A stretch of 64,000 nt of DNA, taken from contig JAFVEA010000005.1 of assembly GCA_017478185.1 (NCBI GenBank), positions 62,001 through 126,000 of the forward strand. Direction: 5' to 3'. The position numbers and the translations under genes were made by a program. How positions within the stretch are numbered: the first letter of the stretch is position 1; every line of letters begins with the position of its first letter. This DNA is from Clostridia bacterium (GTDB lineage: Bacteria; Bacillota; Clostridia; Christensenellales; UBA1242). The notes beneath the pieces are model-generated. The model was not told the DNA's origin, searched no databases, and saw nothing but the letters and a program-made list of their open reading frames with translations. Below, one piece after another: positions 47,904-50,959 of the stretch.

Positions 47904-50810
47904 TTATTGAGCTGTAACAACTTTTTCTATGATTTTGCCGTTTTTATAATACCACCAATTTCCAACTTCTGTTTCATTTGCTCCATTTCCTGTGAAGTAA
48001 TACCATGTGGCATTGGTTAAAGCAGTATTATTATTATTATCTATACTTATGTTTGCTTTTTTAGTTTCTGTTTCCATGTAATAAACTTTTTCTAAATTAG
48101 AGCAATTATAAAATGCACCCCAGTATATAGTGGTTACACTTGCTGGAATGGTTATGCTTGTTAAGCTTGTGCAACCTTCAAAAGCATGAGAACCAATTTT
48201 TGTTACAGTGTTTGGAATTGTTGTTGCTTTACAACCTGCAACAAGTGTATTTGTTGCTGTTCTTATTATCGCATTACAATTATCTCTGCTATCATACACG
48301 GTGTTTCCTTCTTCAACAACAATCTCCGCTAAATTTGTGCAACCATTAAACGCACCACTGTATATACTGGTTACACTTGCTGGAATGGTTATACTTTTCA
48401 AACCACTGCCAAAAAATGCAGAATCGCCTATTGTTGTTACAGTGTTTGGAATGGTTATGCTTGTTAAACTTTTGCAACCGTTAAAAGCGCTATTACCAAT
48501 TGTGGTTAGCTGAGAACCCTCGGCAAAAGTTATACTTTCTAAGCCACTACCAGAAAATGCAAGCTCGCCTATTGTTGTTACACTTGCTGGAATGGTTATG
48601 CTTGTTAAGCTTCTACAACCCCTAAATGCATAATGGCCTATCGTTGTAAATTGAGAACCCTCAGCAAAAGTTATACTTTCTAAGCCACTGCAACCCATAA
48701 ATGCATAATAGCCTAAATTGGTTACACTTGCCGGAATGGTTATGCTTGTTAAGCTTGTGCAATCCTCAAAAGCGCTATTACCAATTGTGGTTAGCTGAGA
48801 ACCCTCGGCAAAAGTTGTGCTTTCTAAGCCACTGCCAGAAAATGCAAGCTCGCCTATTGTTGTTACACTTGCCGGAATGGTTATGTTTGTTAAGCTTGTG
48901 CAATTTCTAAAAGCACCAGAACCAATTGTGGTTAGCTGAGAACCCTCGGCAAAAGTTATGCTTTTTAAGCCACTGCAACCATCAAACACACACCAGCCTA
49001 TCGTTGTTACACTTGCTGGAATGGTTATGCTTGTTAAGCTTGTGCAAAATCCAAAAGAACCCCGAAAATCAACACCACCAATTGCTGTTAACTGAGAACC
49101 CTCGGCAAAAGTTATGCTTTCCAAGCCACTGCCAAAAAATGCAGTATTACCTATATATATTACACTTGCTGGAATGGTTATGCTTGTTAAGCTTGTGCAA
49201 TTTCTAAAAGCACCAGAATCAATTGTTGTTACAGTATTTGGAATTGTTGTGTTTTTACAACCTACGATAAGTGTGTTTGTTTCTGTTTCTATTATCGCAT
49301 TACAATTATTTCTGCTATCATACACGGTGTTTCCTTCTTCAACAACAATCTCCACTAAATTCGTGCAACTAAAAAATGCCTCATCGTTTATCTTTGTTAC
49401 ACTTGCCGGAATGGTTATGCTTGTTAAGCTTGTGCAACCCTCAAAAGCATTATAACCAATTGTGGTTAATTGAGAACCTTCAGCAAAAGTTATACTTTCT
49501 AAGCCACTGCAACCATAAAATGCATTATCGTTTATCATCATCACACTTGCTGGAATTGTTATGTTTGTTAAACTTATGCATCCTTGAAAAGCTTCAGAAC
49601 CAATTGTGGTTACAGTATTTGGAATTGTTGTTGCTTTACAACCTGCAACAAGTGTGTTTGTTTCTGTTTTTATTATCGCATTACAATTATCTCTGCTATC
49701 ATACACAGTGTTTCCTTCTTCAACAACAATCTCCGCTAAATTTGTGCAACCTTTGAAAACCCCATTACTTATGTTGGTAATATTATTTGGAATTGTTATA
49801 CTTGTTAACTTAGTGCAATCATAAAAATCACTCATACTTGTTACTGGCAGATTCTTAAAAGTGCTTGGAATTGTTATTGATGTGCAATCTTTATTTTCTA
49901 CAGAAACTACATATTCATTGTAATAACGACCGTTGAAATATTTATCAGCGAATTTTAAATCCCCATCAACCCAACTTGCATAAATTCTAATACCCCCTGC
50001 TGGCATTGTTGTGAAGGTATAATATTGCGTGAGATTTTCATCGCTATACCAACCTGCAAATCTAAACCCATCTTTTGTTGGCTCTGTTGGAGCAGAAACT
50101 GCTGTTCCATAATCTTGAGTTATTGTGTTAACAATTTCCCCGTCTGCAACGCATGTTATTGTGTATTGAGTTAGCTTCCAAACGGCTGTGTATATTCTAT
50201 CTCCATATGAGCCTTTTTGGATTGTTACAGATTCTGCTGGTGTTTCTAAATTTGTCCCTCTCCAACCAACAAAGGTATAATTTTCTTTTGTCGGATTGTT
50301 TAATTTTATATTACTTTCAGCAGTATAACTGGTAGGGTTTGTTTTACTAAGATTTCCTCCATCTAAGTTATAAGTTATAGTATAAGTATATGAATTTGAA
50401 ATCCACTTTGCATAAAGTGTTTGGTTTTGTGTTATTTTTATGTTTAAATTAAATTCTTGTGTTTTTTGGCTATCAACAAACCAACCAACAAAAGTGTAAC
50501 CAGTTTTTTCTGGTGTTGGCAAACTTAAATTTGCTTCATTTAAAGACTGGCCACTATTTACGCTTAATTGCTCACAAGTGCTTCCAGAATCTGTTTCAAA
50601 AGTTATTGTGCAAACTGTTTGCTCACCATCTGTTGTTTGTGTGTCGTCTTTTGTTTGTTTATCATCTGTTGTTTGTTGTGTGTTATCTATTGTTTGTGGT
50701 TCATCTTTTGGATTGTTGTCACAAGCAGAAAAAACAAAGCCACAAAAAAATATTGCAACCATAAAAACAACAGACAAAAACAGTGTTTTTAAATGTTTTG
50801 TTTTGTTCAT
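47904..50810 (-). CDS. BspA-like leucine-rich-repeat surface lipoprotein
   Basis: 968 residues. Lipoprotein signal with lipobox FSAC (Cys30), a Thr/Asp/Gln-rich linker (residues 31-65), three InlB-type B repeats (about 65-285: GYTFVGWF, YTFVGWRG, FRFAGWYS), then more than 20 LRR_5 units (SLTSITIPASVTTIGxxAF) and a short C-terminal domain. BspA-like proteins of gut and oral bacteria bind host matrix or other cells; here that is inference. DNA copies of the repeat are nearly identical. GGGGA precedes the ATG. The promoter holds a run of 12 G and is probably phase-variable. Confidence 0.92.
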   Translation of the reverse strand: MNKTKHLKTLFLSVVFMVAIFFCGFVFSACDNNPKDEPQTIDNTQQTTDDKQTKDDTQTTDGEQTVCTITFETDSGSTCEQLSVNSGQSLNEANLSLPTPEKTGYTFVGWFVDSQKTQEFNLNIKITQNQTLYAKWISNSYTYTITYNLDGGNLSKTNPTSYTAESNIKLNNPTKENYTFVGWRGTNLETPAESVTIQKGSYGDRIYTAVWKLTQYTITCVADGEIVNTITQDYGTAVSAPTEPTKDGFRFAGWYSDENLTQYYTFTTMPAGGIRIYASWVDGDLKFADKYFNGRYYNEYVVSVENKDCTSITIPSTFKNLPVTSMSDFYDCTKLTSITIPNNITNISNGVFKGCTNLAEIVVEEGNTVYDSRDNCNAIIKTETNTLVAGCKATTIPNTVTTIGSEAFQGCISLTNITIPASVMMINDNAFYGCSGLESITFAEGSQLTTIGYNAFEGCTSLTSITIPASVTKINDEAFFSCTNLVEIVVEEGNTVYDSRNNCNAIIETETNTLIVGCKNTTIPNTVTTIDSGAFRNCTSLTSITIPASVIYIGNTAFFGSGLESITFAEGSQLTAIGGVDFRGSFGFCTSLTSITIPASVTTIGWCVFDGCSGLKSITFAEGSQLTTIGSGAFRNCTSLTNITIPASVTTIGELAFSGSGLESTTFAEGSQLTTIGNSAFEDCTSLTSITIPASVTNLGYYAFMGCSGLESITFAEGSQFTTIGHYAFRGCRSLTSITIPASVTTIGELAFSGSGLESITFAEGSQLTTIGNSAFNGCKSLTSITIPNTVTTIGDSAFFGSGLKSITIPASVTSIYSGAFNGCTNLAEIVVEEGNTVYDSRDNCNAIIRTATNTLVAGCKATTIPNTVTKIGSHAFEGCTSLTSITIPASVTTIYWGAFYNCSNLEKVYYMETETKKANISIDNNNNTALTNATWYYFTGNGANETEVGNWWYYKNGKIIEKVVTAQ
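48130..49760 (-). repeat. Near-identical LRR DNA repeats
   Basis: A unit of about 69 bp recurs many times with long shared blocks (GGAATGGTTATGCTTGTTAA). A longer block encoding EIVVEEGNTVYDSR occurs three times (near 48310, 49340 and 49720). Such identity favours recombination that changes repeat number. Confidence 0.8.
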
Positions 50811-50873
50811 TCTTTTCCCCTTTTTCCTTTTTTATATTTTTTGCTGCCAAGCCCATTTTTAACAGTCATTTTC

Positions 50874-50906
50874 ATTATACCATTACCCCCCCCCCCCTAG
50901 TGTCAA
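50874..50906 (-). promoter_or_regulatory. LRR lipoprotein promoter with a G12 tract in the spacer
   Basis: Reverse strand TTGACA (50901-50906), a 21-bp spacer containing 12 consecutive G (50886-50897), then an extended -10 TGGTATAAT (TATAAT at 50874-50879). At 21 bp the spacing is 4 above the optimum; loss of 3-5 G would bring it to 16-18. Confidence 0.8.
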
Positions 50907-50929
50907 CAACTGAAAGCAAAAAATTTAAA

Positions 50930-50959
50930 AAAACTTTGCTATTTTTTAGCAAAGTTTTT
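50930..50959 (-). terminator. ddh terminator
   Basis: AAAACTTTGCTA and TAGCAAAGTTTT around a T-rich loop, just beyond the ddh stop. Confidence 0.75.

Follow-up and report, generated by a model that had tools for sequence, protein, structure and literature searches.

A G-tract in the promoter spacer of a BspA-like lipoprotein gene as a probable phase-variation switch in a small-genome lineage

The BspA-like lipoprotein gene and its promoter

In the window (the whole 64-kb stretch of DNA that was analyzed), a gene for a large surface lipoprotein lies behind a promoter whose spacer carries a run of 12 G residues. The features of the locus are listed in order of coordinates.

47904..50810, minus strand: surface lipoprotein of 968 aa with BspA-type LRR (LRR_5) and Flg_new repeats, called from Pfam matches and a lipoprotein signal
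48388..49231, minus strand: imperfect LRR-encoding tandem repeats with 141/285-bp periods and 76–84% match
50817..50822, minus strand: Shine-Dalgarno-like AAGGGG, 6 nt before the ATG, judged by eye
50874..50879, minus strand: -10 hexamer TATAAT
50874..50882, minus strand: extended -10, TGG-TATAAT, separated from the -35 hexamer by a 21-bp spacer
50886..50897, minus strand: G12 homopolymer within the promoter spacer, reading C12 on the plus strand
50901..50906, minus strand: -35 hexamer TTGACA, perfect consensus
50929..50959, minus strand: terminator-like hairpin of 13 pairs followed by a T-rich stretch (-13.3 kcal/mol; z of -5.9)

The 968-aa protein qualifies as a BspA-type LRR lipoprotein, defined by a lipoprotein signal peptide together with an LRR_5 match that passes the Pfam cut-off. 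It matches LRR_5/BspA with an E-value of 1.6e-136 (448.6 bits against a cut-off of 27.7) and Flg_new with an E-value of 3.3e-37, and its signal includes a lipobox-like FSAC at residues 27–30. Just after the lipobox, a short degenerate tandem repeat (18/39 nt; window positions 50616–50719) encodes an Asp/Thr/Gln-rich linker whose residues differ slightly between two BspA copies.

The promoter, read on the minus strand, has the order TTGACA-CTA-G12-TAATGG-TATAAT with a spacer of 21 bp. The locus therefore fits the structural definition of a tract promoter, a G/C homopolymer between the -35 and -10 hexamers, and apart from the tract, which falls exactly within the spacer, the promoter is a near-perfect sigma-70 type with an extended -10. 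Conserved flanks surround the tract (TTGACACTA...TAATGGTATAAT). It is the only G/C run longer than 6 in the window, where the five G8 matches overlap to make this one tract (0.14 matches expected under dinucleotide shuffling).

The -10 is 63 nt from the start of the lipoprotein gene. The terminator-like hairpin stands between the G12 promoter and an upstream diaminopimelate (DAP)-dehydrogenase-like gene and makes read-through from upstream improbable. No second promoter-like site with 16–18-bp spacing was found ahead of the gene. Because the hairpin isolates the promoter and no alternative site of that spacing is present, expression of the gene most likely depends on the G12 promoter, an inference from sequence alone.

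An earlier, sequence-only reading had described TTGACA, a 21-bp spacer containing 12 G, and a -10 upstream of a BspA-like lipoprotein, and this held exactly. It had also described the LRR DNA repeats of the gene as near-identical, which failed, as the units are only 76–91% identical overall. Its further proposal that the gene also varies in length is weak, since even the best repeats are about 84–91% alike. Length variation by recombination of near-identical repeats is thus unsupported, and the tandem repeats at 48388..49231 remain a conceivable but weak source of it.

Tract promoters across the genome

The genome of 1.10 Mb has 10 G/C runs of at least 9 (0.33 expected under a first-order model) and six of at least 12 (0.002 expected). 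All 10 runs of at least 9 sit between a -35-like (TTGA-type) and a -10-like hexamer. They range in length from 9 to 14 and give assembled spacers of 18–23 bp; all ten exceed chance and fall in the unstable range of 8 or more. The promoters are given as left flank / tract length / right flank / total spacer.

Window promoter: 3/12/6/21
C3:295832 promoter: 3/11/6/20
C3:299407 promoter: 1/10/8/19
C3:336242 promoter: 0/9/9/18
C3:540149 promoter: 4/14/5/23
C4:10219 promoter: 0/14/8/22
C5:97922 promoter: 0/C11/9/20
C1:57520 promoter: 6/12/3/21
C6:21 and C6:1045 promoters: 6/14/1/21 each

At C3:299407, two -10 candidates are equally consensus-like and the one bearing the TGN motif was used. The nontract part of the spacer is 9 nt in seven of 10 promoters and 8, 7, and 7 nt in the remaining three. 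The tract starts anywhere from 0 to 6 nt past the -35 while the nontract length stays constant (exact permutation p = 0.0024, with right flanks shuffled among seven independent promoters; same-genome tract pairs are related, leaving an independent sample of ∼7).

A nontract spacer of 9 nt means that G8 yields 17 bp, and a G8 tract would give exactly this spacing in seven of nine distinct tract promoters. The same value dominates among ordinary promoters of the genome, as 33 of 50 distinct tract-free TTGACA...TATAAT pairs with both hexamers perfect have a 17-bp spacer. A plausible tract length thus brings the tract promoters to the ∼17-bp optimum. Because ordinary promoters of the species peak at 17 bp, 21 bp should be a low state; the window promoter is four above the species optimum, and shorter tracts are likely to be its high states, although this is inferred. 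An extended -10 is present in eight of nine tract promoters versus 13 of 50 tract-free promoters (p = 6e-4). It would soften an OFF state into a low state, which fits basal activity.

Three more claims of the earlier reading can be judged against these counts. That such a G-run is striking in this genome held. That 21 bp is low and 16–18 bp high is supported by the peak of tract-free promoters at 17 bp. That the extended -10 allows basal expression fits the enrichment of this element, with activity itself inferred.

In the assembly, every one of the ten loci departs from 17 bp, so no ON state was seen, and the window genome yielded no convincing G6–G8 versions of the tract promoter. Most of the assembled population would then occupy low states. 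Spread of the tract by a dispersed repeat or mobile element was considered for the window genome and ruled out because flanks of independent promoters are unrelated; flanks are shared only within the BspA pair and among the lipoprotein genes of the C1/C6 array.

Genes downstream of the tracts mostly encode surface products. A lipobox is present in six of the nine genes below readable tracts versus five of 97 background genes (p = 2e-5), and seven of the nine are exported-like versus 27 of 97. The background was drawn from six regions of this genome, and export and lipobox calls follow simple sequence rules rather than a trained predictor. The lipobox excess persists when counted by gene family (four of seven; p = 8e-4). 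Among the tract-controlled products are two BspA-like proteins, the lipoproteins of a tandem array (C1/C6 ends), two more lipoproteins, and a protein with a CotH domain; an export signal is lacking in two genes.

Some members of the set are unusual. In the tandem array (L032, C6:1–4505, and the end of L033, C1:57520–57543), which is split across contig ends, each of the related lipoprotein genes has its own G12–G14 promoter. Ahead of the CotH-domain protein (L036:3923–3933; C5:97922), a C-run (C11 on the coding strand) replaces G. The tract-driven genes at L035:3220–4279 and L037:2243–2895 encode proteins of 329 and 191 aa with neither an export signal nor a Pfam match.

Tract lengths and tract promoters in relatives

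Copies that share flanks differ in tract length. The site at C3:295832 is a 96%-identical duplicate of the window cassette that spans the terminator and promoter and extends into the coding region, and it has G11 versus G12 in the window. In relative G043, sites with the same flanks read TTGACA-G8/12/14/14-[CT]AGTACAAT, and in a Candidatus Ancillula genome, tracts of G10 to G14 lie between TTGACAAGC and TGCTATAAT. Comparison of tract lengths in related genomes had been proposed in the earlier reading as a check; same-flank copies do differ, but they are paralogs rather than cells and are therefore only an indirect sign of slippage. With one genome per species, each site has a single assembled length, which in a homopolymer may be off by a base or two. 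Two scans of viral contigs for the same locus gave zero matches, and a search for an orthologous promoter in sister species returned, beyond the same-genome duplicate, only short low-complexity matches.

Loss of mismatch repair as a driver of slippage was rejected in its simple form because the genome has a mutS gene (mutL was not covered). Switching would therefore rest on tract length rather than on a missing MutS.

The arrangement recurs in the family. The pattern TTGAC-N0-10-G8-N0-14-TANNNT is present in 113 of 247 same-family genomes, versus three hits in all for the reversed pattern used as a control. In a phylum-wide sample, 33 of 399 genomes have the pattern, usually once each, and the reversed control also matches some genomes. 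Density in the family reaches about 41 distinct sites in G116, whose genome is 1.2 Mb; the downstream proteins there have a common signal peptide, and the single protein tested carries LRR_5. Domains encoded below tract promoters in the family include LRR_5 (L076 and L315 in relatives), Flg_new, DUF6273, and beta-helix/PMP repeats. Below tracts in relatives, 41 of 57 genes are exported-like versus 39 of 122 in the background (p = 5e-7). Two of the family members could be identified further: Lab288P3bin111 (a Bacillota MAG), whose origin we take from its project name to be a termite gut, and an uncultured Clostridia MAG (BRZ_ES bin41), matched by identical sites and coordinates.

Across 67–78 distinct family promoters, the right flank shortens as the left flank lengthens (Spearman -0.72 to -0.76; p about 1e-13). 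The same is seen in 87 promoters with an unambiguous TATAAT -10 (rho of -0.72; p = 2e-15), which were taken from a scan of genome contigs and one of viral contigs. Their sources are Clostridia and Bacilli MAGs, Saccharibacteria, Anaeroplasmataceae, Ancillula, Pumilibacter, Borkfalkia, Streptobacillus, and others, and many of the source records are host-associated, judged by their titles.

The commonest assembled spacer in family relatives is 16 bp. Almost every copy in G116, G054, and G135 combines a G9 tract with a 16-bp spacer, an arrangement that looks stable, not variable. This uniformity could reflect a favored state, the stability of short tracts, or another role, each of which is possible.

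Individual genomes offer further observations. G116 (L253, L261, L276, and L315–L317) and G135 (L254, L262, and L269) each have dozens of near-identical G9/16-bp promoters, whose uniform length sets them apart from the promoters of the window genome. They precede paralogous exported proteins; the N-termini are of the KQASLTATGTIGF type, and LRR_5 or DUF6273 occurs in some of these proteins. In G690, a Candidatus Ancillula MAG of an endosymbiont lineage, at least 27 G-tract promoters (L107, L132, L146, L155, and L182) have tracts of 9–15 and nearly constant flanks (TTGACAAGC...TGCTATAAT), a large set that appears to be phase-variable. Across L098–L183, assembled spacers are commonest at 16 and 18–20 bp and rarer at exactly 17 bp, a scarcity that is partly an effect of requiring at least nine G; in the window genome, by contrast, promoters without a tract are most frequent at 17 bp.

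A spacer-length switch, its rivals, and its meaning

The G12 run is likely the variable element of a promoter-spacer phase-variation switch of the porA/tp0126 type. This central claim of the earlier reading is supported by every indirect test that was run; cell-to-cell variation within a population and an effect on transcription are inferred. In the proposed mechanism, slipped-strand mispairing at replication would add or remove G residues, and each gain or loss would bring the spacing closer to 17 bp or take it farther off. States G7–G9 (16–18 bp) would give high expression, and the assembled G12 state (21 bp) would be low with some basal activity through the TGN extended -10. The ten loci would switch independently, and a clonal population would therefore display many combinations of surface lipoproteins.

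Comparable promoters are known in pathogens. In Treponema pallidum, expression of tp0126, which encodes an OmpW homolog, is best when its poly-G gives a spacing of 17 nt (PMC7864442, citing Giacani 2015). Like the window promoter, it has a poly-G between the -35 and -10, a 17-nt optimum, and a surface protein as product. It differs in phylum and gene, in that the effect of length was measured there and is inferred here, and in that the window genome has ten loci with the same calibration. In Neisseria meningitidis, the length of a G-run in the porA promoter sets transcription by altering spacing, likewise with a 17-nt optimum (PMC7864442), and both porA (poly-G spacer) and opc (poly-C) have a G/C run in the promoter, as in the window genome. 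However, PorA is an outer-membrane porin of a Gram-negative pathogen, whereas here the organism is Bacillota-like with a genome of 1.1 Mb, the genes under tract control encode lipoproteins, and its tract promoters usually have an extended -10 (eight of nine). The Vlp lipoproteins of Mycoplasma hyorhinis switch via a poly-A promoter tract. The Vlp system is similar in its reduced genome, multi-gene lipoprotein set, and independent homopolymer promoter switches, and differs in having an A-tract, a wall-less pathogen as host, and one gene cluster rather than dispersed unrelated genes with a G-tract. The literature searched contained no published example of a BspA-type protein under a poly-G promoter switch, and no prior report of the device for this group was found in the open-licence literature searched.

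The alternative that survives best, though we consider it unlikely, is that the G-run is a fixed part of the promoter, either a DNA-shape element or the site of a regulator or alternative sigma factor that marks a surface-protein regulon, without length switching. In its favor, nearly all promoters of G116, G054, and G135 are G9/16 bp ahead of related surface-protein genes, and at tpr promoters a CRP-like protein acts jointly with tract length (PMC7864442). Against it, the run in the window genome lies at offsets of 0–6 nt from the -35, unlike a binding site fixed in a promoter, while the nontract total is kept. One promoter has C11 in place of G, and lengths vary from 9 to 14 within the genome and from 8–14 or 10–14 with identical flanks elsewhere.

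A second alternative holds that the tracts are decaying or neutrally expanding, that promoters have drifted out of range (18–23 bp), and that the genes are essentially off without useful reversion. All ten assembled spacers exceed 17 bp and there is no convincing G6–G8 locus, as this alternative would have it. However, the reading frames are long and uninterrupted and carry good signals, the design recurs in many genera of the family, where the commonest assembled spacer is 16 bp, and neutral growth would not keep the nontract length at 9 nt. We regard decay as very improbable.

That the homopolymer lengths or the runs themselves are assembly or sequencing artifacts is all but excluded. Such runs are prone to error, and a number of the ten sites (C1 end, C6 start, and C3 end) are near contig ends, but the window tract lies far from the ends of its contig and reappears with intact flanks in a second independent cassette. 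Genomes assembled independently also show the design at hundreds of sites, with a reversed control near zero.

Switching by spacer length therefore remains the preferred reading. The mechanism is already known; its multi-locus, uniform, and calibrated use genome-wide in a reduced-genome uncultured lineage appears to be new. The bacterium has a small genome, is probably gut-dwelling, and has relatives in animal guts. The calibration rule predicts a state for each locus, with G8 as ON at seven of nine distinct promoters, and can be checked in public metagenome reads without culture.

We lean, with limited confidence, toward a bolder reading in which a whole uncultured, reduced-genome family with gut-living members runs large, combinatorial, random switching of its surface by one G-tract device tuned to 17 bp. 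Nearly half of the sampled family species share the design, and the finding bears on a stated open question. To our knowledge, the family includes no recognized pathogen. If the reading is true, phase variation at many loci, which discussion to date has treated as a feature of pathogens, would be very dense in gut commensals or symbionts. If confirmed, switching of antigens and adhesins would be routine for small-genome gut residents and no mark of virulence.
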